Virus record (IMG/VR): IMGVR_UViG_3300032304_001803 | Span: 1-21,150 of that record | Strand: one strand, 5' to 3' | Origin: a virus | DNA: 21,150 nucleotides | Shown here: in pieces, positions 2,685 to 20,142 of the stretch | Position numbering within the stretch: the first letter of the stretch is position 1 | How the letters are laid out: each line of letters opens with the position of its first letter | Translations under genes and position numbers: made by a program | The notes under the pieces: model-generated | Seen by the model: only the letters and a program-made list of their open reading frames with translations | Database searches by the model: none | Told to the model about the DNA's origin: nothing

Positions 2685-2900
2685 TTATTTTTTATCTTGT
2701 AAACCAAATCTAATCCATCTATACCATACACGTTCATGAATATAATATTGAATTGGTTTATATAGTAGTTCAGCAACGCCAAAAGCGGTACTTATTTTAA
2801 CAGACCCCGATATAATCCATATAGTAATAAAACCAATAAGGCTACTAACAACGCGATAGCTAATAGTTTTAGCTATATGTCGTTTTTTACTTACATGCAT
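2685..2900 (-). CDS. DUF2061 small membrane protein
   Basis: A 71-residue protein with the features of DUF2061: an N-terminal KKRHIAKTISYRVVSS, a hydrophobic helix (about 17-32, LIGFITIWIISG), a short second hydrophobic stretch (about 37-52, with the conserved E44 of AELLYKP), and the hallmark YYIHERVWYR at 52-61. DUF2061 proteins are small inner-membrane proteins of unknown function found in bacteria and in many phages. In bacteria some stand next to sulfate-assimilation genes, which is notable because an APS-kinase-like gene lies nearby at 3623-4042. The gene overlaps the end of the HAD phosphatase gene by ten bases and is probably the last gene of the cassette. Confidence 0.85.
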   Translation of the reverse strand: MHVSKKRHIAKTISYRVVSSLIGFITIWIISGSVKISTAFGVAELLYKPIQYYIHERVWYRWIRFGLQDKK

Positions 2901-3238
2901 AATCCTTCATTTCTATTTAAATTGATTCCAACTGCTCTATCAACTTCAGGTGCCTCTGGATCTTTATCATTAATGATATATCTTGTACCTCGCCCGATTC
3001 CCATTACTAGTTGGTGATATTTAATTCCAATTTTTTCTAGTTCTTGTTTTGTAAATAATTCAAGTTCTACAGGGCGGGCAGTTGTAATAACAACATGAGC
3101 ACCATTATTATATTCGTTATTTACTTTATCAATAACGCTTTGTATAGGTGTAGGCGGTACTTCATTTATTTCAGTAAATTTTCTATACTTAATTAGTGTA
3201 CCATCAATATCTACAAAGTAGGTAGGGTGCTTTATCAT
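2891..3238 (-). CDS. HAD-superfamily phosphatase
   Basis: A 115-residue minimal HAD hydrolase. Motif I is DIDGTL at 10-15 (nucleophile D10, general acid/base D12). Motif II is ITTARP at 51-56. The C-terminal motif is GRGTRYIINDKDP (about 82-94), followed by AVGINLNRNEGL. The 'RG.RyiIND..p....AvginL.RneGl' ending recalls small HAD proteins found with capsule and sugar genes in bacteria and phages. The substrate is unknown; a sugar phosphate or a nucleotide phosphate fits the neighbours. The start codon overlaps the stop of the nucleotidyltransferase gene by four bases (ATGA-type), which suggests translational coupling. There is no cap domain. Confidence 0.85.
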   Translation of the reverse strand: MIKHPTYFVDIDGTLIKYRKFTEINEVPPTPIQSVIDKVNNEYNNGAHVVITTARPVELELFTKQELEKIGIKYHQLVMGIGRGTRYIINDKDPEAPEVDRAVGINLNRNEGLCM

Positions 3239-3633
3239 AATTTACCCTCTGCTTTCATTTGTTCACGAATTTTAGTTGCCGATATTTCAGCTACTTCTGC
3301 TGGTGGTATATGTTCTATAATATCATATCCAACTCCGCGTCCAAACTCAACACTGCATATGTCTGGGATGATGATGACTTTTAATGTACCTGCTTCTATT
3401 TCAGCTTGCATTTCATCAAAGATGTTATCCATTACTTGAAGAGGACTAAATGGATTCTTTTCATTAGTTTCTCCATCTCTAATAGCTACACAAACTTTAC
3501 CACCTTCATTGATTACTTGTCTGAATAACTCTTTATGTCCAGTGTGAAGTGGTTGCCAACGTCCAATAAATAATGACCACTGACTGTCTTTACGCTCCAT
3601 TGAGCTTTTAACATGTATTTTTTTATCCCACAT
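3235..3633 (-). CDS. HxGH nucleotidyltransferase (cytidylyltransferase-like)
   Basis: A 132-residue nucleotidyltransferase of the HIGH/cytidylyltransferase-like superfamily, which transfers an NMP from an NTP. Signature elements are FIGRWQPLHTGHKELF at 22-37 (HTGH at 30-33) and ISATKIRE at 117-124, the C-terminal 'ISxTxIR' nucleotide-binding motif. The protein lacks the QxRNPxHxxH form of true ATP sulfurylase and looks closer to NMN, FAD or glycerol-phosphate nucleotidyltransferases. The acceptor is unknown. The start at 3633 overlaps the upstream kinase gene by 11 bases; a second ATG at codon 12 (3600) would leave a 22-base gap and would lose nothing conserved. Pairing with the APS-kinase-like gene and HAD gene suggests one small pathway. 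Confidence 0.82.
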   Translation of the reverse strand: MWDKKIHVKSSMERKDSQWSLFIGRWQPLHTGHKELFRQVINEGGKVCVAIRDGETNEKNPFSPLQVMDNIFDEMQAEIEAGTLKVIIIPDICSVEFGRGVGYDIIEHIPPAEVAEISATKIREQMKAEGKL

Positions 3634-4042
3634 ATTCTTTAATTTGTTTTATACAATTTTCTTCATCTATCCATTCTGTGTTTAGATATAGAGCTTCATC
3701 GTCTGCTGGGTATTCAAAATCAGCTACGTGAAATTGTTCTCTACCCCTATCTAGTTCATAAGTTAAATAAATCCATTTAACATCAGGTACTAAACTATTT
3801 AAGTAGTTTCTTGTTTCTTGATATGGATAAACAAGAGATAAAACTATATTTCTGCCACTGTAGTGAAGGTAAGTAGCAATATCACTAGCTCTATTTAAGT
3901 TATTAATTCTACCTTGCCTGCTATAATCTTTGTTTTGAAACATAGTTCTTAGATGATCTCCATCTATGTAGTAGTCTGCTTCTAACTTATTAGCTAATGT
4001 TGTTTTACCTGAATGTGGTTGTCCGAATAGTACTGTTATCAT
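3623..4042 (-). CDS. Adenylylsulfate (APS) kinase-like P-loop kinase
   Basis: A 139-residue P-loop kinase. Walker A is GQPHSGKTT at 7-15. DGDHLR at 27-32 matches the DGDN(V/I)R motif of APS kinase (CysC). GRINNLNRASDIATYL at 44-59 matches the '(D)REENIRRIaEVA' helix, and NIVLSLVYPYQETRN (65-79) matches 'vi.sfISPyRaeRd'. The later FEYPADDEALYLNTE matches the 'YEaPe.peihl.t' substrate-side segment. APS kinase makes PAPS, the donor for sulfotransferases, and a sulfotransferase gene lies two genes upstream. It is shorter than usual (about 175-200 residues in CysC), and the DP.GLYKKAR lid is largely missing. The true substrate could therefore be another adenylylated or sugar compound. Its start overlaps the glycosyltransferase stop by four bases. 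Confidence 0.8.
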   Translation of the reverse strand: MITVLFGQPHSGKTTLANKLEADYYIDGDHLRTMFQNKDYSRQGRINNLNRASDIATYLHYSGRNIVLSLVYPYQETRNYLNSLVPDVKWIYLTYELDRGREQFHVADFEYPADDEALYLNTEWIDEENCIKQIKEYVG

Positions 4043-5001
4043 TGTTTGTCTATTGATTTAAAAATATCATTAATATCAAACATTTCATTAGCATCCATAT
4101 AAGGACATTCATGAGCAACACCGTCAAATGAATAATCAAATAAATATGAATCAATCATTTTAACATTACCTTTTGGTGGTTTTGCTACTACATTTGAATG
4201 TAAATCGTATCCAAAATTCTTAGGTGAAGTACCAATCCACAATACAGTTGATTTTAGATTCATTGCAGCTGCAGCATGTTGTAAACTTGAATCAATCAAT
4301 ACACGTTTATCTGACAGTACTAATGTACTAAATAATTCGTGATTAGTCATCGGTGCATTTACAAATTCAGTACCTGGGATAGCATGACCTGGGTCTCTAC
4401 CTATTTGGATAATGTGGTATTTGTTGGAATATTTTTCAACAATTGCTTGAGCAATACCATAAGGCATATCTCGCGTCCAGGAATATAGTGTATTTTGTTG
4501 TAGTGGTCCTCCATTAGTATGGAGAATCATAGTTGGCCTATCACGTTTCCAATTAAATATGATATCTTTTTGTATCATATTTGGATATAAAATAGGTTGT
4601 TGTTTTTCATACTTAACATCTAACAAATCACACCAATTTTCAATCAAATGTTTTTTCTTTGTAATATGAGCTGATTGAAAATAGGGTTCATGTTTGAATA
4701 TGATAGTATCTTTATCTTTAATATAATCATCATAGAAGTAAGATACCATTCCTACTCTATATACTCTGTGAATGTCAGGATGGTTTAAGAATACTTCAGG
4801 ATAAGATACTACAAGTATTAATTTCCTGTCTTTGTATTTTTGTTTTACTGCTGAAATAAGAGATGTTGCTGCAATATTTTTTCCGAGTCCACCTTCAACA
4901 TGCCAAACGACATATTTAGTGCTATTATTTGATTTGTCTTCCAAAACCGCTATTTTTTCTTCTTTTAATAAATCTGTTTCTGTTTTATAACCTACATTCA
5001 T
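4039..5001 (-). CDS. GT9-like (heptosyltransferase-type) glycosyltransferase
   Basis: A 320-residue GT-B fold protein. The N-terminal WHVEGGLGKNIAATSLISAV (33-52) is the GT9 'GGlGD.i.a.p.l..l' loop with KN in place of GD. ILVVSYPEVFLNHPDI follows, like the heptosyltransferase second strand. The C-terminal half has MILHTNGGP (158-166), IIQIGRD (197-203) and DSSLQHAAAAMNLKSTVLWIGTSP (237-260), matching the GT9 'DSg..HlAaAlg.p.v.lfG.t.p' nucleotide-sugar site. It probably adds a sugar to a lipid- or protein-linked glycan in the cytoplasm; donor and acceptor are not readable. It starts five bases after the sulfotransferase stop and is coupled to the kinase gene by a 4-base overlap. Confidence 0.78.
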   Translation of the reverse strand: MNVGYKTETDLLKEEKIAVLEDKSNNSTKYVVWHVEGGLGKNIAATSLISAVKQKYKDRKLILVVSYPEVFLNHPDIHRVYRVGMVSYFYDDYIKDKDTIIFKHEPYFQSAHITKKKHLIENWCDLLDVKYEKQQPILYPNMIQKDIIFNWKRDRPTMILHTNGGPLQQNTLYSWTRDMPYGIAQAIVEKYSNKYHIIQIGRDPGHAIPGTEFVNAPMTNHELFSTLVLSDKRVLIDSSLQHAAAAMNLKSTVLWIGTSPKNFGYDLHSNVVAKPPKGNVKMIDSYLFDYSFDGVAHECPYMDANEMFDINDIFKSIDKQ

Positions 5002-5006
5002 TTCAT

Positions 5007-5831
5007 TTATATTTGGTATCCAAAATCATTAAAGAACCATTTGTAACTGTCCTCCAATATACGACAGGCATTTGGCCCTAACACCTCATAAAAATCATTT
5101 TTTACGGGTTTTAGTTTTCCTCTAATCATATGGTCACCGAATATACCATACCACTTATCATCTTCTTTTGTGTATTGTGGTATGTTATCAAAATCGTGTT
5201 TGTAATAAGGTAATTCTAAATACTCATAAATGCGACGCATTTGAGCATCAGGATCTATACATAACTCCTCAAATTTAATAAATAAAATATGTTGATGTAT
5301 ACCTTGAACTAAAATTTGGTATAATCTATCCATTGCAGGACCAATAGGAGGATTTGCAGACCATACTTGCATTCTTTTATCTGTAGTTGTGCCTGTTAAA
5401 TTTCCCCAATTCGCAATGTGGTGATCTGTAAGTGGATTTTGTCTGTATTTTTTCTCTAAAGATGAATAAATTGCTCTAACGTCCCTAATCATGCATATGA
5501 TTTTGGGTTTAGAATCAAAAGCATTGATAAATTCATACTCTGATCCCCAACCTCTGCATTTATCAACAACATAAGGTCTGTCAGTTAAATTTTCATAGAA
5601 ACCATACAAACCGTTTTTTAAAAACGATTTAAAACCAGTTTCCATTTCAGATGTGTCTTGTGCTTTAAACTCTAATCCATCTGTGTAGATAGTTCTACAA
5701 GCAGACAACATTTCATACAACCCCGAAGTTGGGGTCGTATGAATTGTTGGATTTTGTCCTAATATATTTTGAATTAACGTAGAACCTGCACGCGGCAGTG
5801 AACTATTATAAAATACCTTCTTTATGGCCAT
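5007..5831 (-). CDS. PAPS-dependent sulfotransferase
   Basis: A 274-residue sulfotransferase, which moves a sulfuryl group from PAPS to a hydroxyl or amine, here most likely on a glycan. The 5'-phosphosulfate-binding loop is SSLPRAGSTL at 10-19. The 3'-phosphate-binding motif is MIRDVRAIYSSLEKK at about 114-128, with the conserved R and S. FIKFEELCIDPDAQMRRIYEYLELPY is the usual 'yE.L..dP......i..FlgL' segment. The length is close to the family norm, and no signal peptide is seen, so it is cytosolic. It is the first gene after the 114-residue protein, from which it is separated by a hairpin (5861-5887). The A-rich leader has no Shine-Dalgarno. A nearby APS-kinase-like gene could supply PAPS. 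The acceptor is unknown. Confidence 0.88.
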   Translation of the reverse strand: MAIKKVFYNSSLPRAGSTLIQNILGQNPTIHTTPTSGLYEMLSACRTIYTDGLEFKAQDTSEMETGFKSFLKNGLYGFYENLTDRPYVVDKCRGWGSEYEFINAFDSKPKIICMIRDVRAIYSSLEKKYRQNPLTDHHIANWGNLTGTTTDKRMQVWSANPPIGPAMDRLYQILVQGIHQHILFIKFEELCIDPDAQMRRIYEYLELPYYKHDFDNIPQYTKEDDKWYGIFGDHMIRGKLKPVKNDFYEVLGPNACRILEDSYKWFFNDFGYQI

Positions 5832-6269: not shown

Positions 6270-6881
6270 TTAAAATCTTTTAAAAATGATATCTATTTGG
6301 AAGATAAGTTTATTATACAAATGTGGAAATTGGTGATATTCTACAATATCTAACATATAGAACCCATATTCCTTCATTTTATCTATAATTTTATCTATTA
6401 AAGGAGCTCCTTGATTATATTCAACCAATGACACCTCAATCAATACATGCTCTGTATTTTTAATAGTTTTTTTACCGCCGTTTAATATATCTAATTCAGC
6501 ACCCTGTACATCTAATTTAATAAAATCAATAGGGACTCCATCGAAACAATTATAACTATCTAATGTTTTAGTTGGTACAGTTATGGTTTCATATTTACCT
6601 TCTCCATACCAATCTGTATTTTCTTTATATAAGGAAGCACCTGTTGCTACTGGGTTTATTTTTTCAATATATAGATCAGCATAGCCTTCTTTATCAGATA
6701 ATGCTACTATTTCATATGGTTTTCCTAATAATCGTAAATAAGGTTCGCAATTAGGATTGGCTTCAACCATTATAGTCCTACATTCTGGGTATCTGTAGCT
6801 GAGTTGTTTGGTGAAGTTTCCGATGTTTGCTCCGATGTCGATTGCGCGTTTTGGATTAATATACTTAAAAAGTTTGTCCAT
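6270..6881 (-). CDS. FkbM-family SAM-dependent methyltransferase
   Basis: A 203-residue class I methyltransferase of the FkbM type, which O-methylates sugars and other small hydroxyls. Motif I is DIGANIG at 15-21, the acidic end of strand 2 is VEANP at 39-43, ALSDKEG (60-66) follows, and the family hallmark KLDVQGAELDIL is at 122-133. LIEVSL (about 147-152) follows. The full methyltransferase core is present, though the protein lacks the longer N-terminus some members carry. The start must be at or very near ATG 6881, because motif I begins 14 residues in. Its first 112 bases therefore overlap the 3' end of the GT4 gene in another frame. Methylation would cap or vary a glycan made by the adjacent glycosyltransferases. 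Confidence 0.88.
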   Translation of the reverse strand: MDKLFKYINPKRAIDIGANIGNFTKQLSYRYPECRTIMVEANPNCEPYLRLLGKPYEIVALSDKEGYADLYIEKINPVATGASLYKENTDWYGEGKYETITVPTKTLDSYNCFDGVPIDFIKLDVQGAELDILNGGKKTIKNTEHVLIEVSLVEYNQGAPLIDKIIDKMKEYGFYMLDIVEYHQFPHLYNKLIFQIDIIFKRF

Positions 6882-7759
6882 TCATTTATTCTTTGATCCC
6901 AACTCCATCTTGGAGCATATACTTGTTTTTGTAATTCTAAATGTGAATCTAATTCACCATTCCTTATTTTACTAATTTCTTCATCCAATATATCAGCAAA
7001 TCTTTTAGCGTGTAGTTTTTTACTTGCTAAATAAGGATACATACGAGCCCACCCCTCTGTTGTTTCAGGTAGAGCACCTAAATTAGATGTTACTACTCTT
7101 AATCCTGCAGATAATGCCTCTATTACAGTAATGCACGATGTTTCTTCAAACGTATTAGGATAGGCTAAAATATCAAATGTATGAAGTTCTTTACGTAGTT
7201 GCTCATTAGATACATTACCTCTATACATAACATCATCTAATGCTTCACATTTATCGTATAGATCTTGATAATAGTTTTCATTATTAATAGCGAAGTCTTT
7301 GCCGTATATTTTTGTGCTGGAGAATATATGTAATTCAACATTTTCTGATTTAAGTAATTCCCAAGCAGCTAGCAATATATCTAAGCCTCTCCACGGTGTT
7401 GAGGTATAACATAATTTTACTTTATCTCGTTTTCCGGGTTGTCTTTGTTCTACACCAATACAAGCGTTTTTGATTACATGTGTTTTATATCCTGGAATGT
7501 TAAATGTTTTTCTAAATTGTTCTGACTGCCAGTGTGATACAAACACAAACTGATTAATATCATCCACGTTTTCTTGGTTTTGTAGAAGTTGAACTGCATT
7601 TTGATCATACGATAACTGATTCCAATATATTGTTGGTTTAGTTATGTCTGCATATGCAGGATAATTGAATATAGAGAATTTATCTTTATATTCTTGTGGA
7701 AGGCGTCTCATTAGTTCCTCATACATTAATTCAGTGCCGCCCATTGGTTTGTCAAGCAT
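6770..7759 (-). CDS. GT4-type glycosyltransferase with overprinted C-terminal tail
   Basis: A 329-residue GT-B glycosyltransferase. It begins MLDKPMGGTELMYEELMRRL (donor-side GG loop near 7-8), then FVFVSHWQSEQF (71-82) and LCYTSTPWRGLDILLAAW (116-133), the start of the second Rossmann domain. MYRGNVSNEQL (178-188) follows. The GT4 signature E-x7-E is in EETSCITVIEAL (E206 and E214), with GLRVVTSNLGALPE after it. Residues from about 301 onward are a low-complexity Ser/Thr/Gln/Asn tail. The last 37 codons overlap the FkbM gene in another frame, so this tail is probably overprinted or acquired by stop-codon loss. The start overlaps the GT-A gene by eight bases. The substrate is unknown. Confidence 0.85.
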   Translation of the reverse strand: MLDKPMGGTELMYEELMRRLPQEYKDKFSIFNYPAYADITKPTIYWNQLSYDQNAVQLLQNQENVDDINQFVFVSHWQSEQFRKTFNIPGYKTHVIKNACIGVEQRQPGKRDKVKLCYTSTPWRGLDILLAAWELLKSENVELHIFSSTKIYGKDFAINNENYYQDLYDKCEALDDVMYRGNVSNEQLRKELHTFDILAYPNTFEETSCITVIEALSAGLRVVTSNLGALPETTEGWARMYPYLASKKLHAKRFADILDEEISKIRNGELDSHLELQKQVYAPRWSWDQRINEWTNFLSILIQNAQSTSEQTSETSPNNSATDTQNVGL

Positions 7760-8435: not shown

Positions 8436-11400
8436 TTATCCAATTTTTTCTTCTACTATCTCTAATCTGTCGTTTAGTTCTTGAACAGCTTTAATTAACG
8501 GAGCAATCAATTCCTCATATGTAAGGCGGTATGCATCTTTTTCATCATCATGACCTAAACCGTCAAACTTAACATCCAATTCATCCAATGCAGATTTAAG
8601 TTCTTGAGCGATAAGACCATAATGTTCTTTTTCACCAGCAAGAGTACCATCTTTCTGTCCGTATTCGTATTTACACTCACGTACATAAGACTCGCGATGA
8701 TCCCAATTGAATGCTACTGGGCGTAGCTTCTTGATCAAGGCTAGACCGTATTTGCTGCCTAATGTCTTAACATTAGCTTTATCGCGGCAATCTGAAACGT
8801 TAGACCAAGCAGCATATACGCAGTTACAAACATTATTACATGAGTTACCCCATACTGTATGGCCAGTTACTCCAGAAGTTACAGCGTTATGTCCAACAGC
8901 AATGGTATAATCTATACCAGCATATAGATTACCAGAAGAACTATTACCAATTGCAATATTATATCTACCGTTGCTATTAAATTGCATTGCAAACTGTCCA
9001 ATGGCTACATTCGCTTTACCTACATTATTAGACTTTAAAGCTTGCTGTCCAATTGCTGTATTCCAAAGACCTGTAGTATTGAGATTTAAAGTATAGCTAC
9101 CTACTGCAGTATTTCCTGCACCTGTTGTGTTACAGCGTAATGCACAGAATCCAATTGCTGTGTTACCATAACCAATAGTATTACAAGAGAGCGCTAGGTT
9201 TCCATTAGCAGTGTTTTGACATCCAGTAGTATTAGCTTTTAATGCATAGAAACCTACTGCTGTATTGTCTGATGCTGTATTAAGTGATAATGAAAAATCT
9301 CCAAGAGCAGTATTAGAATTACCTACTGTATTAAGTGCTAAAGTATCTCTACCAACAGCAACATTATTTGTACCTGTTGTATTTGCATTTAATGCTGCTC
9401 TACCGATTGCTGTATTACTACAACCTCTAGTATTTACTGCTAAAGCACCAACACCTATTGCAGTGTTGAAGGAACCAGTGCTATTACTACTTAATGCACA
9501 AAATCCTACTGCTACATTCTCTATACCAGTAGTATTATCCCTTAAAGCACAGAAACCTACTGCTGTATTGTTTGTACCAATAGTATTACTTCTTAATGCA
9601 TAGAAACCGACTGCTGTATTGTTTGATGCTGTGTTACAACGTAATGCGTTTGTTCCTAACGCTGTGTTATTTGATCCAACGAGGTTATATGCTAAAGACT
9701 GATTACCTACAGCAACGTTGTTTTCACCAGTAGTGTTGTTCCTCAATGTATAATATCCAACAGCCGTATTAAGTCTTCCTGTTGTGTTCAGTCTTAGTGA
9801 GAAGTGGCCTATACCTACATTTCTAGTACCAATAGTGTTAGAACATAGAGCATTAACACCAACTGCTGTGTTTGTTGTTCCTGTGGTATTACTTCTTAAT
9901 GCACAGAATCCAACTGCTGTATTATCGGATGCTGTATTCGCTTGTAGAGAATAAAAACCTACAGCAGTATTACTACCACCTGTAACGTTTTGTTGAAGTG
10001 ATGAATATCCAACAGCAGTGTTATTTATTCCTGTTGTATTAGTAAATAGAGCTGTTCTACCAAATGCAGAGTTTCCTGTGCCTGATGTGTTTGAATATAA
10101 TGTTCTATCACCTACTGCTGTTAAATACCTGCCTGTATTTACTCTTAGAGCACTTCTACCTATTGCTACGTTATTACAGCCTGTTGTGTTACATCTAAGA
10201 GCTTCAACACCTATAGCTATATTATTGGTTGCAGTTGTATTTTTTTCTGAAGCAAGTCTACCAATAGCTATATTGAGAGTTCCTGTAGTATTACTTGCTA
10301 ATGCTAAAGAACCAATAGCAGTATTGTCACTTCCTATTGTATTACTATTTAATGCACAGACTCCTACTGCTACGTTGTCTATACCAGTAGTATTACTTCT
10401 CAATGAACAAAATCCAACTGCTGTGTTGTTTGATGCTTGATTTAAATATAAAGTCTGTGAACCAACAGCTACGTTGTTTGCTCCTGTACTATTAGTTAAC
10501 AGAGCAGCATTACCAATACCTACGTTATGGCTTGCTGTAGTGTTATCTCTTAAAGCTAATCTACCTACTGCTGTGTTTAGGGTTCCTATTGAATTACCTA
10601 ATAATGAACATAAACCTAAAGCTGTGTTGTATACTCCTGTTGTATTAGAAATTAAAGATTGATATCCAACAGCAGTATTTGAGCCACCTGTTGTGTTTGA
10701 TTGTAAAGCACTTCTGCCTAAAGCAGTGTTAAAAGAACCTACTGTGTTACTCCTTAAAGAACAAAATCCTACTGCTGTGTTGTTTGATGCTGTATTATCT
10801 TCTAATGCTCTAAAACCAAGTGCTGTATTATTCGCGCCTACTGCATTAGCATTTAAGCTGTTAAATCCTACTGCTGTATTAGAATTACCTGTTGTATTTG
10901 AAAATAATGAACCCCTACCAACGGCTACATTGTACTGTCCTATTGTATTAGATCCTAAAGCACTATTACCTAATCCTGTGTTACAACCACCTGTAGTATT
11001 ATTTGTTAATACTTCAAAACCAACTGCTGTATTGTTTGATGCTGTATTAGATAATAATGCAGCGCATCCTACAGCAGTATTATTATTACCTGCTGTATTG
11101 CACCTTAATGCACTTCTACCGATTGCTGTATTAGCACACCCTACTGTGTTTGCTGTCATAGCAAGAACACCTATGGCTGTATTATTTACACCGGTTGTAT
11201 TAGAACATAGAGCAATAGAACCTATTGCCGTGTTATAGTTACCTGTATTTGCTCTTAAAGCACCAAATCCTATAGCAGTTGTATTTGTAGTTGCAACACC
11301 GGCGCAAGCAGTATCAGTACCTATTGCTGTATTGTATGTACCTGTAGTATTACCTCTTAGCGCATTAAGACCAACTGCTATGTTGTTTGATACTGTGTTT

Positions 11401-12530
11401 GATAATAGAGCACTTCTACCAATTGCTGTATTACTACTTCCTGTAGAATTATCCTGTAATGCAAAAGCACCTACAGCTATGTTATCTCCACCTGTTAAGT
11501 TTGTAACAAGAGAATTTACACCCATTGCGACGTTGTAAGTACCTGTTGAGTTTGTCGCTAAGGCGTATCTACCGACGGCTGTATTACAGCCCCCTGTCGT
11601 GTTGTTTCTTAGAGCACCACACCCTACTGCTGTATTTAAAGCACCTATAGTATTACTTCTTAATGCACAGAAACCTACTGCTGTATTATTCGATGCTGTA
11701 TTGCTATATAAAGCATTAGTACCAACTGCTACGTTGTTAGCACCAGTAGTATTACTTTGTAAAGCACTTTTACCAACAGCTGTATTGAAATTACCTGTAG
11801 TATTTGCATTTAATGCTGCCCTACCTACAGCTGTATTATAACAACCAATAGTGTTAGATCCTAATACACTTCTACCTATACCGACATTTCCTACACCTGT
11901 AGTATTATTAGATAATACATATGCACCTATACCTACATTATCTGTTGCTATTGTATTAGCAGCTAATGTGTTTAAACCTATTGCTATATTAAATGCCCCT
12001 GTAGTATTTTGGCTAAGTGCACTGTTACCTACAGCTATGTTACTATTACCTATTGTATTTGCTATTAAAGCACTATTACCTACTGCTACGTTATTAGCAC
12101 CAGTAGTATTACTACCTAATGCATTAGTACCGATTCTAGTATTAGTTGAAACACTTCCCTCACCTCTACCTATATTTACAGAATTAACTGTAATATCACG
12201 ATCAAATGTAGTAGGGCCGTTTACATTTAAACTACCAGTTATACTAACAGATCCTGTGAATTGATGTGTGTTTGACAATGAACTACCAAATACGGTAGAT
12301 CCTGTCATATAACTTATAGAAGACGTTATAGTCTGTACTACAAGTGTTTGAGCAGTAATTGTACCTCCGACATTTAAACTTCCTGAGATATTGATAGATC
12401 CTGTAACTGAGTGTACATCGGTAATAACACTACCAATTTTTACTCCAGTTTGTAAGACTTCAAATTCAGTTGTACTCCCCGTGATAACTGATAACGATCC
12501 TGTAATTACTGTACTTTGTAATTGAGCCAT
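8436..12530 (-). CDS. Giant tail-fibre protein 1 (1364 aa): beta-roll repeats and S74 chaperone
   Basis: Residues 1-129 are a TGS-rich beta adaptor (TGSLSV, ISGSLNVGG, FTGSVSITGSLNVNG), probably trimeric and fixing the fibre to the tail. Residues 130-1190 are 63 tandem 17-residue units (ten of them one residue short), typified by NTAVGFCALRSNTTGxx and akin to the YadA-head/Hep_Hag beta-roll. Residues 1191-1245 are an irregular neck with Cys 1231, 1235 and 1237. An intramolecular S74 chaperone starts at S1246 (SDCRDK, Ser/Lys dyad S1246-K1251), with RPVAFNW, GLIAQEL and a final coiled coil. Self-cleavage before S1246 would release 119 residues. The family is known from phage endosialidases; the receptor is unknown. 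It follows fibre gene 2 after one base. Confidence 0.9.
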   Translation of the reverse strand: MAQLQSTVITGSLSVITGSTTEFEVLQTGVKIGSVITDVHSVTGSINISGSLNVGGTITAQTLVVQTITSSISYMTGSTVFGSSLSNTHQFTGSVSITGSLNVNGPTTFDRDITVNSVNIGRGEGSVSTNTRIGTNALGSNTTGANNVAVGNSALIANTIGNSNIAVGNSALSQNTTGAFNIAIGLNTLAANTIATDNVGIGAYVLSNNTTGVGNVGIGRSVLGSNTIGCYNTAVGRAALNANTTGNFNTAVGKSALQSNTTGANNVAVGTNALYSNTASNNTAVGFCALRSNTIGALNTAVGCGALRNNTTGGCNTAVGRYALATNSTGTYNVAMGVNSLVTNLTGGDNIAVGAFALQDNSTGSSNTAIGRSALLSNTVSNNIAVGLNALRGNTTGTYNTAIGTDTACAGVATTNTTAIGFGALRANTGNYNTAIGSIALCSNTTGVNNTAIGVLAMTANTVGCANTAIGRSALRCNTAGNNNTAVGCAALLSNTASNNTAVGFEVLTNNTTGGCNTGLGNSALGSNTIGQYNVAVGRGSLFSNTTGNSNTAVGFNSLNANAVGANNTALGFRALEDNTASNNTAVGFCSLRSNTVGSFNTALGRSALQSNTTGGSNTAVGYQSLISNTTGVYNTALGLCSLLGNSIGTLNTAVGRLALRDNTTASHNVGIGNAALLTNSTGANNVAVGSQTLYLNQASNNTAVGFCSLRSNTTGIDNVAVGVCALNSNTIGSDNTAIGSLALASNTTGTLNIAIGRLASEKNTTATNNIAIGVEALRCNTTGCNNVAIGRSALRVNTGRYLTAVGDRTLYSNTSGTGNSAFGRTALFTNTTGINNTAVGYSSLQQNVTGGSNTAVGFYSLQANTASDNTAVGFCALRSNTTGTTNTAVGVNALCSNTIGTRNVGIGHFSLRLNTTGRLNTAVGYYTLRNNTTGENNVAVGNQSLAYNLVGSNNTALGTNALRCNTASNNTAVGFYALRSNTIGTNNTAVGFCALRDNTTGIENVAVGFCALSSNSTGSFNTAIGVGALAVNTRGCSNTAIGRAALNANTTGTNNVAVGRDTLALNTVGNSNTALGDFSLSLNTASDNTAVGFYALKANTTGCQNTANGNLALSCNTIGYGNTAIGFCALRCNTTGAGNTAVGSYTLNLNTTGLWNTAIGQQALKSNNVGKANVAIGQFAMQFNSNGRYNIAIGNSSSGNLYAGIDYTIAVGHNAVTSGVTGHTVWGNSCNNVCNCVYAAWSNVSDCRDKANVKTLGSKYGLALIKKLRPVAFNWDHRESYVRECKYEYGQKDGTLAGEKEHYGLIAQELKSALDELDVKFDGLGHDDEKDAYRLTYEELIAPLIKAVQELNDRLEIVEEKIG
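8961..12143 (-). repeat. 63 tandem 51-bp (48-bp) coding repeats, fibre 1
   Basis: Each unit encodes N-[TIV]-[AGS]-[VIL]-G-x-x-[AS]-L-x-x-N-T-T-G-x-x. Units 9, 15, 22, 27, 34, 44, 50 and 57 end NTASN, NTASD, NTVSN or NQASN and are 16 residues long, giving a higher-order spacing of about 5-10 units. Units 18 and 40 are also 16 long. The following unit most often begins NTAVGFCALRSN. Confidence 0.9.
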
Positions 12531-12531
12531 T

Positions 12532-15500
12532 TTACTGTGTTAGTTTTTTTACTTCTTCCTTTAAAACCTCTATCTGCGACTGTTGATACTTCAACACATT
12601 AATAAATATTGTCGAAAGCTTGCTATAGTTTATACCCGTTATTTCTTCCGAGCTATCTTTTGATACGAATTCAGGAAATATATTATAAACATCTTCCGCC
12701 AAAAGACCAACATCTTTATTTCTAGTATCTTTCCAAGTGAAAGAAATTGGTTGTAATTTGAGGAAATCCTCAATGTTTGTTGTGTATGGTTTAATGTTTT
12801 CTTTTAATTTTCCTGTTGATGTTTCGATAATGGAAACGAATCTACCAGTACCATTTACATCTAGTGTATATGCTGGGGTTGTAGTATTTATACCAACATT
12901 CCCCCCACTTGTGATGCGGAGGCGTTCGGCACCATTAAAATCAAATTTCAAATTATTTCCTGAATCTTGATACAATGCCCAATCAAAAGTGTTTGCAGGA
13001 TTCCTTAAAAATAAACTGCCACCGCTATAAATTAAGTTATTTAAGTTTGATACAGTCCCACTAAATGTTGCTGCTCCTGTGGAGGAAAGTGTTAACACAT
13101 CTTCGTTCCATACATTGTTAGATGCTCTTGTGCTAAACCTTAAATCACCACCATAACCTGAGCCACCACCTGTACCTACTGCTCTTATTTTACCTCTTGC
13201 ATTATTACCTACGGTGTATGTTGAATGAAAGTAAAAATATTCTTCTGATGCTTCAATTCCTGCATTACCTTGAATTGATAGTTTATATCCCGGCGATGTA
13301 GTACCTATACCTAACCCTGTGGAGGTTAGACGCATACCTTCAGTTCCCGAAACACTAAATATATTATTCGTAGTTCCGTTGAATGATGTTGCAGTTACAG
13401 TTGAACTAAATGTTGCTGCACCTGATTCTGCTATTGTTAATCTTGTAGTGCCATTTGCATTAAATAACAAAGAAGAATCAGATAGAGTAGTCATTCCTAT
13501 TCTCCATTCTGTTACGCCTGCATAAAGTAAGTTAAGGAATGGTTGAGTAGTTGCAATACTTACTATACCTCCTACCAACAATCCATTTGCAGGAGCAGCA
13601 GTTGTTGTTCCGATTGATAACCCACTATTTGTTCCAAGCGTCATCGCTTGGGTGAAGGAGATTGCGTTACCTGCGGTGCCGGATGGGGCGGACATCCACA
13701 AATGTTCACCACTATTGTTTTGAATATACGCAGTTGATAAACCATTATTGAGATATCTTGCATCTCCTGTTTGATATGCACCACCAACAACATACGAGTT
13801 ATTGGTTAATACAGTATAATTTGAACCAGATTTATATGCAAACAAACTACCTGCTTGTCCAAATTGTTGAGCAGACCATAATGAACTCCACGCACTCGGT
13901 GTAACTCCAAGACCGAGGTTGCCTGATGCGTCAATACGAACTCTAAAGGTAGAATTTGTATAGAAATCCATTACGTTAAGACCACCTGTTCCTCCGTAAA
14001 TTAATTGAGAGCCTGCTGCATTTGTTAAAGTTAAAGCAGCAACCCCACCATTAGAATTTATAGTTAAATTAGTATTTGTATTACTATTAAATAAACCATC
14101 ACCAACAACTTGAAGTTTTACTGATGGTGATGTAGTACCTATACCAACATTGCCTGCTGAAGTGATACGTAGGCGTTCGGTGTTGTTAACTACTGCTCTA
14201 ATAAGTTGATTGCTTGAATCTCCGTCAATATATGTGCTACCATCACCCCAAGCAAAATCGCCTCCATTTGACGCTATGAATGATGTTGCTCTTACACTGC
14301 CAGATACATCTAATTTATCTGTTGGTGATGTATTACCTATACCAACATTTCCTGTAGACCCAGTTACAAACATCCTTATATTTCCAGCACCATCAGAAAG
14401 TATGATGTTGCAATTTGAGGTTGCGATGTCTGTACCTGAATTAGAACCTAATATTACGTTGCAGGCACCGGTTGTAATGGAGCAACCTGAATTGGTGCCT
14501 AGGGCTATGTTGTTGGCGCCAGTGGTATTTGCTCTTAACGAACAGAGACCTACTGCTGTATTATTTGATGCTGTGTTACATGTTAAAGCTGAATGTCCTA
14601 CTGCTGTATTACCATTACCAACAGAACACTGTAAAGCGCCATGACCTAAAGCAGCATTTTGGTAACCATTAACATTACCTAGCATTGAGTTAGTACCTAC
14701 GGAAACATTAAATGTACCACCCACATTAGCTGCTAAAGCAGAAGTTCCTACTGCTGTATTAAATGTACCTATAGTATTATTTGCTAAAGCACTAACTCCA
14801 AGGGCAGTATTTACATATCCTGTTGTATTAGAAGCTAAAGCACTTACACCCACTGCTACGTTATTTGTACCAGTGGTATTAACTCTCAATGCACTAGCAC
14901 CTACAGCTGTGTTGCTTGATGCTGTGTTACACCTTAATGCTTGTGTTCCCACAGCGGTATTACTGCCGCCTGTTATATTTGAGAAAAGAGAATACCAGCC
15001 TAAAGCTGAGTTACTTCCACCTGTTGTGTTTTCTTGTAGAGCACCTCTACCTAAAGCAGCGTTGAAATCACCTGTAGTATTACACCTTAATGAAGATAAA
15101 CCAACTGCTGTATTAGCTGTACCGGTTGTATTTGCACTTAAAGCACTAGCACCGACAGCAGTATTACCTGCTCCAGTAGTATTAGCATTTAAAGAACAAT
15201 AACCTACTGCAGTGTTATTAGACGCTATGTTACTATTTAAAGCATTCTGACCTATAGCTACGTTGTTATTCCCTACTGTATTATTTTGAAGAGCTAAAGC
15301 ACCTACTGCTACGTTAGCACCACCGGTTGTATTATTTCTTAATGCATAGAAACCTAAAGCGGAATTTCTATCTCCTGATGTATTAGAGAACAATGCTAAA
15401 CTTCCAAAGGCTGCATTACATGAACCACCAATATTGGCTGTAAGTGAATTATAACCAACAGATGTATTTTTAAATCCTACTGTGTTAGCGTTTAAAGAAC

Positions 15501-18500
15501 TCCAACCAACAGCTGTGTTGCTATTACCTGTTGTATTACACCTTAATGAAGAAAAACCTAAACCTGTATTTCTGTAACCTGTTGTGTTAGCAGATAAAGC
15601 ACTTGCACCTAAAGCTGTATTATAACATCCTGTTGTATTAGATGTTAGAGCACTATTACCTATAGCAGTATTATCTATACCTATAGTGCTTAAATTTAAT
15701 GCTGCAAAACCAACTGCTGTGTTACATCTACCTGATGTATTACATTGTAGTGAATTAACACCTAAAGCAGTATTATTATAACCGACAGTGTTTGTTCTTA
15801 GTGAGTATCTACCAATAGCTGTATTATTAGCGCCTGTAGTATTACTTCTTAATGAACAGAATCCTACAGCGGTGTTATTTGAGGCTGTGTTGCAATACAG
15901 GCTATATGCACCTAAAGCTACGTTACTATTTCCAACTGTGTTTGCAAACATAGCATTAGTACCTATTGCTGTGTTTCTTGTTCCTGTAGTATTAGAGAAT
16001 AAACTATTAGTACCTATTGCTATATTACTACCACCTGCTGTATTATTAAGTAAAGCTTGAGATCCTAAAGCTGTGTTTTGTGTACCGGTTGTATTACCTT
16101 GTAAAGCATAAATACCAACTGCTATATTTCTAATACCTGTTGTATTAGTACATAAAGCATTTCTACCAACAGCTGTGTTACATGTACCTGTTGTATTACA
16201 TCCTAAGGCGCTGAAGCCTATAGCTGTGTTACTTGATACTGTATTTACACGTAAAGCTTGGTCACCTATAGCTGTATTAAAACATCCTGTTGTATTTGAC
16301 TCTAATGCTCTAGAACCTAAAGCTGTATTACAACATCCTGTTGTATTAGCATATAATGTCCTATGACCAACAGATGTATTATTATTTGCTGTACTAAATA
16401 CTTGAGAGTATTGTCCTATAGCAACGTTATTAGTTACTGTTGTTCCATCTCTTAATGTAGCGTGTCCTAAAGCTACGTTTGATAATCCTGTAATATTAGC
16501 TCTTAAAGCACAGAAACCTACTGCTGTATTATTTACACCAGTAGTATTACTCCTTAAAGCATAGAAACCTACTGCTGTGTTGTTTGATGCTGTATTACAT
16601 AGCAATGAAAGATTACCAATAGCTACGTTATTACATCCATTTATATTGTTTTGTAAAGCACTTGAACCTAAAGCAACATTACAGCTTCCTCCGCAGTTAC
16701 TGTATAGTGTATTTCTACCAACTGATGTATTATTACTACCTGTAGTGTTATTCCTTAATGCACAACTACCGACTGCTAAGTTATCTGTACCAGCAGTATT
16801 AGCTCTTAGAGCAGAAAAACCTACAGCCGTGTTGTTTGAGGCTGTATTTGAAAATAAAGCATTATGTCCTACAGCTATGTTACTTGTGCCAACTACATTT
16901 GAATATAAAGTGGCACCGCCTATTGCTACGTTTGTTGTACCTGTTGTATTATTTTCTAACGCACTAGATCCTATAGCTATATTAGAACAAGCAGTAGTGT
17001 TTTTTCTTAATGCGTAAGGGCCTAATGCTACGTTACTGTTTCCAGTAGTATTACTTCTTAACGCACAGAATCCAACTGCTGTGTTATTTGATGCTGTGTT
17101 ACAGAATAGTGACTGATAGCCTATAGCTACGTTACTACATCCTGTAACATTAGCAAATAATGAATACTTACCTAATGCTGCATTGCAATTTCCTGTAGTA
17201 TTACTTTCTAATGATCTACGACCAATAGCTGTATTATCTCCTCCACTAGTATTACTAAATAAAGCATTATGTCCTATCGCGGTATTGTTGTTACCTGTTG
17301 TATTACTTGCTAATGCTTTATACCCTAAAGAAGAGTTATTTGTTCCTACTGTATTACTTCTTAAAGAACAGAAACCAATTGCTGTATTGTTTGATGCTGT
17401 GTTTGTATAGAGTGATTGGAATCCTATAGCGGTATTATTAGCACCTACGGTGTTGCATCTTAAAGCACTACTACCTAGAACAGCATTATACCCTCCTGTT
17501 GTATTCCCAAGTCCAGCAGCCCACCCAATAACGGTGTTTTGATTACCGGTGGTGTTGGCAGTTAGAGCACAGTTACCCATAGCTACATTATATCTACCAG
17601 TAGTATTATTTCTTAATGCGCTAGCACCTACTGCTGTGTTGTATGAGGCTGTGTTTGAAAATAAACTACATAAACCTAAAGCAGTATTATTTACTCCTGT
17701 TAGGTTATTATATAGTGATTGATACCCAACAGCAACATTATTCTGTCCTGTAGTGGTTGAGGCCATGGATTGACGACCTATAGCTGTGTTACGAGAACCT
17801 CCTGTATTAGCCTTTAAAGCTATACCTCCTACGGCAGTATTATTAACTCCTGTTGTATTATTTCTTAATGCACAGAAACCAACTGCGGTATTGTTGGAGG
17901 CTGTGTTACAACGTAAACTTTCATTACCTATTGCTACGTTATAGTTACCTGCAACGTTAGCTCCTAATGCACTATTACCAATAGCTATGTTACATCTTCC
18001 TGTTGTATTACTGGCTAATGCACTTGCTCCAATTGCATTATTATATCCTCCTGTTGTATTGTTGGCTAATGCACTTCTACCGAAAGCTGAGTTATAGTTA
18101 CCGGTTGTGCTACAGCATAAAGCAGCAAGACCTAAAGCTGAATTGCCTGCGCCTGTTGTATTATTTCTTAAAGCATAAAAACCAACACCTGTATTATTTA
18201 CACCAGTTGTATTTGATAGTAATGCTCTGGATCCAATAGCTACATTATAGCTTGCGGTATTTCCTTCAAGAGCCTGCCAACCTATTGCTACGTTATTGTT
18301 ACCAGTAACATTAGTAACTAGAGCTCTTACACCGACAGCTGTATTTTGTGTACCAGTAGTATTATTTGTTAATGCACAGAATCCAACAGCGGTGTTGTTT
18401 GATGCTGTGTTTAGAAATAAAGAACACAAACCAATAGCTACATTGTTAGTACCTACTATATTATATCTTAAGGTATAGTTACCTACTGCTATATTACTTG

Positions 18501-20142
18501 TACCTGTGGTATTAACTCTTAAGGAATAAAATCCAATTGCTGTATTATTTGCACCTGTTGTGTTAGCTGCTAAACTACTTCCTCCAAGGGCTGTATTAAA
18601 TGTACCAATTGTATTTAATCTTAATGCATTAACACCAATTGCTACGTTAACATTACCTGTTGTATTTGAGAATAAGGCACAACGTCCTACAGCTGTGTTG
18701 TAATTACCTATTGTATTACACCTCATTGCTAAATACCCAACAGATGTATTATATCCGCCTGCCGTATTTGCACCAAGTGAATTTACACCTACAGATACGT
18801 TAGATGTACCAGTAGTATTATTTCTTAATGCACAGAAACCTATACCTGTATTATTTGATGCTGTGTTAGAACGTAGGGCAAAAAATCCTATTCCTACGTT
18901 ATTGCAAGCTGATATATTAGAATACAATGAATCTGTACCTATTGCAATATTACAACCTCCGGAAGCATTATAATTTAAGGCGTTTCTACCTATAGCTGTA
19001 TTATTACTACCTACTGTGTTAAATACTAGAGAATTTACACCAACAGCAACGTTATTGTCTGCGGTGGTGTTTCTGTATAAAGAGTTATTACCGACAGCTA
19101 CGTTACCTTGACCTATTGTGTTAAGTCCTAGAGCAATTCTTCCTATCGCGGTATTATTTATACCAGTAGTATTACTTCTTAATGCACAGAAACCTACTGC
19201 TGTGTTGTTTGATGCTGTATTGCAAAATAAAGAACGATAACCAACAGCCACATTATTAGCACCTACTGTGTTATAATTTAGAGACTGAGCACCTACTGCA
19301 GTATTAGCTACTCCTGTTGTATTGCATATTGCAGCATTTCTTCCAAAAGCAGAGTTAGCTCCGCCTGTATTACATAGTAGTGATTGAAAACCAACAGCAG
19401 TGTTGTCACTACCTCCTATATTTGCATATAAACTTCTATTTCCAATTGCTGTATTTTGGGTTCCTGTAGTATTATTAAATAAAGCACTAAGACCAACAGC
19501 AACACCATTACCTGTTGTATTGCAATATAACGCTCTAGTACCTACTGCTACGTTACTGCATGCTACGTTATATCTTAAAGCACCTCTACCCACTGCTATA
19601 TTTCCTGTACCTACTGAATTAATTAATAAAGCATAGTTACCTACAGCTATATTATCATTACCTGTTGTATTAGAGGTTAAAGCACTAGCACCTATAGAAA
19701 CGTTTCTAGTACCTATTGTATTATTCCTTAGTGCACAGAATCCTACTGCTGTATTGTTTGATGCTGTGTTTGAAAGTAAAGCGCCTCTACCAAGTGCTGT
19801 GTTATTACTTCCTACTATATTATTAAATAAAGCATAATATCCAACAGCAGTATTAGCTGTACCGGTTGTATTATAGAAAGATGCATTTCTACCTATTGCT
19901 GTGTTTTGTACACCACTTGTATTAAGTATTAAAGCATTTGTACCAACAGCTACGTTATTAGCACCAGTAGTATTTGATGATAGAGCATTAGCGCCTACTC
20001 TAGTATTAGTGACTACACTACCTCCTCCTTCACCTACACAAACTCCATTAAATATAGAATCACAAGTAGTAGACAATGATCCTGTCACTTGTGAATTCTG
20101 TAGTGCTATTATTCCTAACCGGGCTACGAATTCATTTGGCAT
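12532..20142 (-). CDS. Giant tail-fibre protein 2 (2536 aa): beta-roll repeats, GNVGIGTTSP region and S74 chaperone
   Basis: Residues 1-45 are a short N-terminus unlike that of fibre 1 except for GEGGGSVVTNTRVG at the join. Residues 46-1910 are 111 tandem units of 17 or 16 residues of the same family. Residues 1911-2441 are a different beta-rich shaft with recurring GNVGIGTTSP..KLDV(s)G, RLRITS and AATFSGTV motifs, common in metagenomic phage tail proteins. An S74 chaperone begins at S2442 (STGKLK, dyad S2442-K2447; the usual Asp after Ser is Thr), with FTWK, VGLLAEDV and a C-terminal coiled coil, so cleavage would free 95 residues. The start at 20142 has an A/T-rich leader with a perfect 7-bp hairpin. 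It is one of two tandem paralogues; it may form a distal or alternative fibre. No receptor domain is recognised. Confidence 0.9.
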   Translation of the reverse strand: MPNEFVARLGIIALQNSQVTGSLSTTCDSIFNGVCVGEGGGSVVTNTRVGANALSSNTTGANNVAVGTNALILNTSGVQNTAIGRNASFYNTTGTANTAVGYYALFNNIVGSNNTALGRGALLSNTASNNTAVGFCALRNNTIGTRNVSIGASALTSNTTGNDNIAVGNYALLINSVGTGNIAVGRGALRYNVACSNVAVGTRALYCNTTGNGVAVGLSALFNNTTGTQNTAIGNRSLYANIGGSDNTAVGFQSLLCNTGGANSAFGRNAAICNTTGVANTAVGAQSLNYNTVGANNVAVGYRSLFCNTASNNTAVGFCALRSNTTGINNTAIGRIALGLNTIGQGNVAVGNNSLYRNTTADNNVAVGVNSLVFNTVGSNNTAIGRNALNYNASGGCNIAIGTDSLYSNISACNNVGIGFFALRSNTASNNTGIGFCALRNNTTGTSNVSVGVNSLGANTAGGYNTSVGYLAMRCNTIGNYNTAVGRCALFSNTTGNVNVAIGVNALRLNTIGTFNTALGGSSLAANTTGANNTAIGFYSLRVNTTGTSNIAVGNYTLRYNIVGTNNVAIGLCSLFLNTASNNTAVGFCALTNNTTGTQNTAVGVRALVTNVTGNNNVAIGWQALEGNTASYNVAIGSRALLSNTTGVNNTGVGFYALRNNTTGAGNSALGLAALCCSTTGNYNSAFGRSALANNTTGGYNNAIGASALASNTTGRCNIAIGNSALGANVAGNYNVAIGNESLRCNTASNNTAVGFCALRNNTTGVNNTAVGGIALKANTGGSRNTAIGRQSMASTTTGQNNVAVGYQSLYNNLTGVNNTALGLCSLFSNTASYNTAVGASALRNNTTGRYNVAMGNCALTANTTGNQNTVIGWAAGLGNTTGGYNAVLGSSALRCNTVGANNTAIGFQSLYTNTASNNTAIGFCSLRSNTVGTNNSSLGYKALASNTTGNNNTAIGHNALFSNTSGGDNTAIGRRSLESNTTGNCNAALGKYSLFANVTGCSNVAIGYQSLFCNTASNNTAVGFCALRSNTTGNSNVALGPYALRKNTTACSNIAIGSSALENNTTGTTNVAIGGATLYSNVVGTSNIAVGHNALFSNTASNNTAVGFSALRANTAGTDNLAVGSCALRNNTTGSNNTSVGRNTLYSNCGGSCNVALGSSALQNNINGCNNVAIGNLSLLCNTASNNTAVGFYALRSNTTGVNNTAVGFCALRANITGLSNVALGHATLRDGTTVTNNVAIGQYSQVFSTANNNTSVGHRTLYANTTGCCNTALGSRALESNTTGCFNTAIGDQALRVNTVSSNTAIGFSALGCNTTGTCNTAVGRNALCTNTTGIRNIAVGIYALQGNTTGTQNTALGSQALLNNTAGGSNIAIGTNSLFSNTTGTRNTAIGTNAMFANTVGNSNVALGAYSLYCNTASNNTAVGFCSLRSNTTGANNTAIGRYSLRTNTVGYNNTALGVNSLQCNTSGRCNTAVGFAALNLSTIGIDNTAIGNSALTSNTTGCYNTALGASALSANTTGYRNTGLGFSSLRCNTTGNSNTAVGWSSLNANTVGFKNTSVGYNSLTANIGGSCNAAFGSLALFSNTSGDRNSALGFYALRNNTTGGANVAVGALALQNNTVGNNNVAIGQNALNSNIASNNTAVGYCSLNANTTGAGNTAVGASALSANTTGTANTAVGLSSLRCNTTGDFNAALGRGALQENTTGGSNSALGWYSLFSNITGGSNTAVGTQALRCNTASSNTAVGASALRVNTTGTNNVAVGVSALASNTTGYVNTALGVSALANNTIGTFNTAVGTSALAANVGGTFNVSVGTNSMLGNVNGYQNAALGHGALQCSVGNGNTAVGHSALTCNTASNNTAVGLCSLRANTTGANNIALGTNSGCSITTGACNVILGSNSGTDIATSNCNIILSDGAGNIRMFVTGSTGNVGIGNTSPTDKLDVSGSVRATSFIASNGGDFAWGDGSTYIDGDSSNQLIRAVVNNTERLRITSAGNVGIGTTSPSVKLQVVGDGLFNSNTNTNLTINSNGGVAALTLTNAAGSQLIYGGTGGLNVMDFYTNSTFRVRIDASGNLGLGVTPSAWSSLWSAQQFGQAGSLFAYKSGSNYTVLTNNSYVVGGAYQTGDARYLNNGLSTAYIQNNSGEHLWMSAPSGTAGNAISFTQAMTLGTNSGLSIGTTTAAPANGLLVGGIVSIATTQPFLNLLYAGVTEWRIGMTTLSDSSLLFNANGTTRLTIAESGAATFSSTVTATSFNGTTNNIFSVSGTEGMRLTSTGLGIGTTSPGYKLSIQGNAGIEASEEYFYFHSTYTVGNNARGKIRAVGTGGGSGYGGDLRFSTRASNNVWNEDVLTLSSTGAATFSGTVSNLNNLIYSGGSLFLRNPANTFDWALYQDSGNNLKFDFNGAERLRITSGGNVGINTTTPAYTLDVNGTGRFVSIIETSTGKLKENIKPYTTNIEDFLKLQPISFTWKDTRNKDVGLLAEDVYNIFPEFVSKDSSEEITGINYSKLSTIFINVLKYQQSQIEVLKEEVKKLTQ
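14413..20007 (-). repeat. 111 tandem 51-bp (48-bp) coding repeats, fibre 2
   Basis: Same repeat family as in fibre 1. About 22 units are 16 residues instead of 17, most ending NTASN (units 5, 16, 23, 32, 42, 52, 58, 63, 68, 82, 108, and NIASN at 95). In the middle the spacing is regular at five or six units (47, 52, 58, 63, 68). Cys occurs mainly at unit positions 7, 11 and 16-17. Confidence 0.9.

Follow-up and report, generated by a model that had tools for sequence, protein, structure and literature searches.

Does a stretch of DNA that two enzyme genes share in different frames truly encode both proteins, or is it the trace of a stop codon lost from the upstream gene? The question is raised by a phage locus in which a glycosyltransferase gene (GT4) runs 112 nt into an FkbM-type methyltransferase gene. 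The locus lies in a virus record of 21,150 bases, here called the window. A sequence-only reading of this DNA had put forward the two answers as alternatives; we find that they are compatible and that each has support.

The gene pair and its setting

The argument turns on the following features of the window.

6270-6881, minus strand: FkbM-type methyltransferase gene, 203 aa (Pfam PF05050 over residues 15-174; 21 viral loci)
6770-7759, minus strand: glycosyltransferase gene (Glycos_transf_1 / Glyco_trans_1_4), named GT4 in the sequence-only reading, 329 aa (Pfam, PHROG 2170, 47 viral loci)
6770-6881, minus strand: out-of-frame overlap of the two genes, 112 nt, with FkbM codon position 3 on GT4 codon position 2
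6879-6881, minus strand: FkbM ATG, spanning GT4 codons 293-294 (E-W, GAATGG)
6842-6844, minus strand: site of the GT4 stop in relatives with a 40-nt overlap; sense codon 306 in the GT4 of the window
6771-6842, minus strand: exclusive part of the overlap, past the stop position of the 40-nt relatives (FkbM codons 14-37; codes for GT4 residues 307-329 plus the larger part of the stop)
6819-6839, minus strand: FkbM residues 15-21, DIGANIG, called motif I in the sequence-only reading
6770-6772, minus strand: GT4 TAA stop, formed by FkbM codons 37-38 (ATA ATG)

Both genes have Pfam matches above the cut-offs and are therefore real by homology. The Glycos_transf_1 match in GT4 scores 46.6 bits against a cut-off of 26.4 and ends at residue 237, well upstream of the overlap; the Methyltransf_21 match in FkbM scores 90.9 bits against 22.7 and extends from residue 15 over profile positions 1-171 of 173. 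The latter bears out the earlier claim that FkbM needs the shared stretch, and it means that FkbM, were its start placed at codon 14, would still share 73 nt with GT4. The GT4 stop is the first in its frame, and neither start nor stop can be moved out of the overlap, as is required of a real one. The coordinates first given for the overlap are exact. Its length was also right, but the 37 codons by which GT4 was said to pass the FkbM ATG are 36 sense codons followed by the TAA stop. The remaining overlaps between neighbouring genes of the window measure 4, 11, 4 and 8 nt.

The surroundings have a character of their own. Two adjoining minus-strand genes (8436-12530 and 12532-20142) encode long repetitive proteins of 1364 and 2536 aa, with repeats like NTAVGFCALRSNTTG and a Peptidase_S74 chaperone domain near the end of each; judged by these traits, the products are probably tail fibres. 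The minus-strand genes at 706-1284 and 20202-20957 carry NUMOD3 motifs, the second also a GIY-YIG nuclease domain, and are likely homing endonucleases flanking the cluster. The minus-strand genes from 2891 to 5831, some of which overlap by 4-11 nt, give cytidylyltransferase-like, APS-kinase-like and sulfotransferase matches and a weak HAD hydrolase match below the cut-off; perhaps they make up a small set for sugar or sulfate modification, close to the fibre-like genes.

Overlap classes among relatives and the history of the long tail

Searches of viral contigs returned 47, 25 and 8 loci for GT4 and, for FkbM, 21 loci and then the best 80 of 521, with many contigs repeated between searches; some relatives may therefore be absent from the set. 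The comparison set comprises 41 GT4 genes of more than 50% identity, identical junctions removed and the window included. The 112-nt overlap occurs in 12 of these 41 junctions, with FkbM identity to the window as low as 69%, so that we are dealing with a real overlap, conserved in a family of uncultured phages. A GT4 stop in the same phase is found at 40 nt in five junctions and at 43 nt in four. The overlap measures 4-41 nt in 14 others, 13 of them in the other phase and one (L033) in the same phase. No FkbM match lies beside GT4 in L013, L017, L024 and L030, and the long tail is absent from all four. In the last two of the 41, both Pfam domains lie in a single frame:

L132: fused GT4-FkbM ORF of 509 aa, its stop ending at 3603
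L091: fused GT4-FkbM ORF of 522 aa, its stop ending at 4569

The FkbM part scores 50.7 bits in L091 and 63.2 bits in L132; the L132 record also holds an additional, separate FkbM match. All overlap lengths were measured from the ATG nearest to the domain, some rows having more in-frame ATGs upstream (in L002, L003, L004, L008 and L014 another lies 27 nt upstream).

That the tail was created by loss of an earlier GT4 stop, as first proposed, is likely in view of where the homologues stop: 12 of the 41 at 112 nt and nine, all in the same phase, at 40 or 43 nt, positions that a sense codon occupies in the 112-nt group. GT4 length is nearly constant in that group, at 329-330 aa where complete (L016 is cut by the contig end), and differs from that of the 40/43-nt relatives; the length difference between orthologues, due to frameshift, error or stop mutation, that marks a mispredicted 3' extension (category iii in PMC2478687) is not found within the 112-nt group. 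One row counted at 40 nt, L012, has an FkbM gene without the motif I region, and apparent FkbM remnants follow the GT4 stop directly in L013 and L024. From these three cases it seems that FkbM may be dispensable in some phages. Farther afield, a nucleotide search in named phages gave a single weak match and a protein search 20 phage records at no more than 36.3% identity, in two of which the glycosyltransferase overlaps an annotated 'hypothetical protein' by 14 and 17 nt. A bacterial genome scan found two distant rhizobial loci, and sequence searches of the PDB with two alignments found no match at E 0.001 for either.

For the codon analyses, the 112-nt set consists of 13 open frames, namely the 12 members and L055, covered only from 14 nt upstream of the FkbM start, without its GT4 body. 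Seven of the nine 40/43-nt relatives served as controls, leaving aside L010 (a near copy of L009) and L012 (FkbM deletion); the near copies L005/L006 and L027/L028 were kept in the counts.

Both ends of the overlap are anchored. The GT4 Trp codon TGG at the FkbM start is invariant and ATGG is constant in 10 aligned junctions, L007 reading Q-W (CAATGG) at this point. A stop falls at the column of FkbM codons 37-38 in all 13 frames of the 112-nt set and in four of the seven controls; it has the form xTA ATG or ATG ATG and is thus made by the conserved [IVM]-M codons of FkbM. With a fixed ATG and a fixed stop, the same length could arise more than once: a frame losing its intermediate stops would often run on to codons 37-38, and the 112-nt state could have appeared repeatedly. 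The GT4 tree (39 rows) requires four changes of this state, at least two of them forced by well supported branches, and groups L034 and L018 (112 nt) with L009, L010 and L012 (40 nt) and L013. As 40-nt and 112-nt rows intermix in the tree, GT4 may have regained stops as well as lost them, or segments may have been exchanged. FkbM itself is a mosaic, L034 and L009 being 0.63-0.77 identical over the first 240 nt and 0.88-0.98 beyond; such sharp shifts of identity inside the gene, seen also between the window and L004, mark exchange points.

Codon choice, hydropathy and synonymous change in the shared stretch

The overlap had been described as visibly richer in G and C than its surroundings. It is so, mildly (0.384, where stretches of this length across the two genes average 0.320), but 9% of such stretches are as rich and one outside the overlap reaches 0.411. 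The stronger fact is found at the codon level. Codons 14-36 of FkbM in the window end in C 12 times and in T twice, against 13 and 63 times downstream. Over 12 rows, L055 not being counted here, C makes up 108 of the 175 third-position pyrimidines in codons 14-36 (62%) against 239 of 947 downstream (25%); the same measure gives 40/96 against 170/538 in eight same-phase relatives with short overlaps, L010 included. A general bias of early codons was rejected as the source of the C excess, 12 other genes of the window giving 24/127 and 179/849. At single codons, FkbM G21 is GGA in 13/13 members and 2/7 controls, and A18 is GCC in 10/13 and 0/7. In all 12 members the codon fit of FkbM is worse in the overlap than in its own downstream part (-0.47 against +0.35 in the window); in three of the 12 (L005, L006 and L015), FkbM nevertheless fits the phage's codon usage better than GT4 does in the overlap, which is the contrary direction.

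The peptide read in the GT4 frame is correspondingly hydrophilic. When FkbM was recoded with its own codon usage, the real tail was more hydrophilic than the open recodings in 13/13 members (z -2.2 to -4.5) and clearly so in 2/7 controls (L087 and L009). Under a stricter shuffle within the gene, the tail was more hydrophilic at p<0.05 in 11/13 members and 1/7 controls (L087); the two weak members are L018 and L034 (p 0.062 and 0.24), for which open frames had also made up only about 0.1% of the 20,000 draws in the recoding with FkbM's own usage. In a scan along FkbM, the group mean z of hydropathy is -2.5 at the overlap, and the 13 other segments range from -0.3 to 0.6. Reading the same bases in the third frame also gives a hydrophilic peptide (z -1.0 to -3.9 in the 13 members, 0.0 to -2.7 in the controls), so that part of the hydropathy signal is plain C-richness. 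An open frame is not improbable in a single sequence either, since shuffling synonymous codons within the window's FkbM leaves the shifted frame free of stops in 16% of trials (0.4% to 44% over the 13 members); the weight comes from the relatives.

The rate of silent change differs in the same place. Among codons for the same residue, third positions of the 112-nt set differ at 0.241 (313/1297) in codons 14-37 against 0.404 (3394/8401) downstream, and those of the controls at 0.567 (173/305) against 0.500 (775/1550). The ratio of overlap to downstream is thus 0.60 (0.38-0.83) in the 112-nt set and 1.13 (0.96-1.31) in the controls, an answer to the synonymous-constraint test suggested by the sequence-only reading, and none of 134 contiguous downstream windows has a ratio as low. 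Codons 2-13 fall within the overlap in either group and change slowly in each (0.301 and 0.320); as codons 14-37 are slow in the 112-nt set only, the slowness is tied to the overlap. It is concentrated in codons for A, G, P, T, V, L, R, S and I (0.208 against 0.478) and slight in those for N, D, C, H, Y and F (0.290 against 0.352) and for K, E and Q (0.270 against 0.292). The close pair L018/L034 shows the opposite, with 3/23 differences in the tail and 10/144 downstream. The rows are related, which makes probabilities inexact, and the controls are fewer and more diverged; with this reservation, parsimony on columns of invariant residue (9 in the tail, 61 elsewhere) gave p=0.014 for the 112-nt set and p=0.84 for the controls, two- and three-fold columns alone not being significant (p=0.22).

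Two simpler causes were rejected. Stop avoidance alone lowers the expected differences by just 4-9% or so (six members simulated), which is too small. Recent homogenisation was dismissed because FkbM residues differ as often inside (0.266, codons 14-37) as outside (0.261, downstream), which would not be expected of a stretch that was merely young or lately exchanged. No third-position difference in the 112-nt set creates a stop in the GT4 frame (0/256, against 21/121 in the controls); the set having been chosen for open frames, this count is true by construction and we do not use it as evidence. An OLGenie-like ratio, after an idea presented in part of PMC7531306, is 0.44 (0.24-0.78) in the tail and 0.70 (0.56-0.88) downstream, outside any known second gene; the intervals overlap, and the ratio is only suggestive of selection on a second frame. 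Judged by sequence comparison, purifying selection appears to act on the second frame. The conserved overlap, the codon bias, the hydropathy and the lowered synonymous change together make it probable that the stretch is dual-coding, the second of the two original proposals.

Competing explanations and biological meaning

The interpretation that we favour, with moderate confidence, is that the 36 shared codons are dual-coding and that selection keeps the GT4 tail open and hydrophilic by way of the silent positions of FkbM. The GT4 frame runs on past the folded domain, enters the beginning of FkbM and ends where the [IVM]-M codons make a stop, the shared codons presumably being translated in both frames. 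The known domain belongs to the FkbM frame, whose free third positions serve as second positions of the GT4 tail codons. C is favoured there and reads as Ser, Thr, Pro or Ala for GT4, T is shunned and would read as Leu, Ile, Val or Phe, and A is avoided in -TA codons, which can give a GT4-frame stop; C or A at those positions would render the extension harmless. Kept open, hydrophilic and probably disordered, the extension may leave GT4 soluble and stable, and a specific binding role of the tail would not be required. A structure model of GT4 places the last predicted helix at residues 287-307, followed by the tail; residues 304-329 have pLDDT <50 and are predicted to be disordered, a hint only in a model whose mean is 60. 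The tail may have originated by accident. FkbM probably starts on its own, independently of the GT4 stop: in one study, cited in a passage of a review (PMC12548453), a 25-nt overlap no longer gave coupling. Among the relatives, too, many shorter overlaps exceed 25 nt.

Work on other systems touches on such a tail. An excerpt on random peptides in Escherichia coli describes small, disorder-promoting residues as the benign ones (PMC9210321), and a passage on overlapping genes describes their proteins as rich in disorder (PMC8227390). In a Mycoplasma library, as far as the excerpt goes, expression was lower with hydrophobic and aromatic residues at the two C-terminal positions, and Thr was rarer at C-termini (PMC7246954). 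This fits the GT4 tail only in part, given the scarcity of Thr at C-termini there and the Leu that ends the tail in all 13 frames (...GL or ...EL); a hydrophobic last residue argues against the end of the tail being tuned for stability.

One could also envision a tail with a specific job, which we hold to be rather unlikely: an acidic, Ser/Thr-rich arm (T-S-E-P-x-x-x-E-like) that would contact FkbM or the acceptor and so pair the two enzymes. GT4 E310 and E314 are kept through FkbM glycine codons with room to vary, GGA being found in 13/13 at both against 5/7 and 2/7 in the controls, and the two fused ORFs, L132 and L091, suggest that the two activities go together. It is tempting to extend this to an equally doubtful proposal, in which selection would have recoded FkbM to write a disordered arm into GT4, short overlap, long overlap and fusion being ways by which the phage family ties its enzymes. 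Many tail positions, however, exchange S/L, T/I or P/Q between relatives, the nine 40/43-nt relatives have no tail, and the predicted disorder also speaks against a specific role.

A neutral history, in which a C-rich origin of the FkbM 5' end left the GT4 frame open by chance with no selection on the tail, strikes us as improbable. The mosaic structure of FkbM (identity windows of the window/L004 and L034/L009), the fact that an open frame is not rare in any one sequence and the hydrophilic third frame would accord with it; yet C-endings have persisted in the overlap of an otherwise T-rich FkbM, despite a mean residue difference of about 26%, and synonymous change there is slow. Local conservation of third positions and the shifted base composition could reflect a constraint on the nucleic acid (an RNA structure or a regulatory site) instead of on the tail peptide. 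This we judge very unlikely: RNAalifold on 10 of the 12 junctions found no supported structure (covariation +0.29, two-sided change in 1 of 17 pairs), and the slowness follows the length of the overlap. That the overlap is an artefact of sequencing error or of a wrong start or stop is hardly credible, even though a passage of a survey of cellular prokaryotes ascribes to misprediction those same-strand overlaps >60 bp that were examined (PMC2478687), as the same two frames recur in twelve junctions from different contigs, which would need one error common to twelve assemblies, and the FkbM domain match begins at residue 15. The sequence-only reading had named earlier-ending GT4 homologues together with a sequencing error as grounds for rejecting its claim; such homologues exist, at 40 and 43 nt, but the error is contradicted by the 12 junctions and was set aside.

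Phages with nested or longer overlapping genes exist, and phiX174 is named among phages with overlapping genes in an excerpt of PMC8227390. Same-strand terminal overlap is a known kind, described in passages of Fonseca et al. 2013 (PMC3887535), where elongation of the upstream gene at its 3' end likewise continues until it meets the first in-frame stop that the downstream gene supplies; such elongation would be a plausible origin of the GT4/FkbM overlap. Its phase is that of the 1- and 4-nt overlaps (phase 2) treated there. According to the same passages, however, phase 2 overlaps that persist are mostly short, and phase 1 is preferred among long ones, so that both the length and the phase of the present case are unusual. 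Similarly, an excerpt on virus reference genomes (PMC8903798) gives the +2 same-strand shift, which is also that of GT4/FkbM, as the commonest but nearly all such overlaps as 1 or 4 nt. The holD-rimI overlap of Enterobacteria, in a passage of Palleja et al. 2008 (PMC2478687), is also a conserved same-strand overlap of two unrelated genes; it measures up to 56 bp, the longest real one that the authors identified, whereas the GT4/FkbM overlap measures 112 nt, is found in phages and has a tail that is absent from close relatives. The fused ORFs share the GT4 body followed by the FkbM domain, but in one frame and one protein. Among the literature matches listed, titles and abstract openings do not name a GT4-FkbM overlap.

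The available part of a survey of 338 prokaryote genomes reports no real same-strand overlap >60 bp (PMC2478687), and the GT4/FkbM pair is a well supported 112-nt candidate. The same two enzymes are seen with a short overlap, with a long overlap and fused among relatives. With the tail-less relatives as controls, what a C-terminal extension costs and how it is tamed can be studied in a single gene pair, where selection seems to work through the silent positions of the downstream gene.
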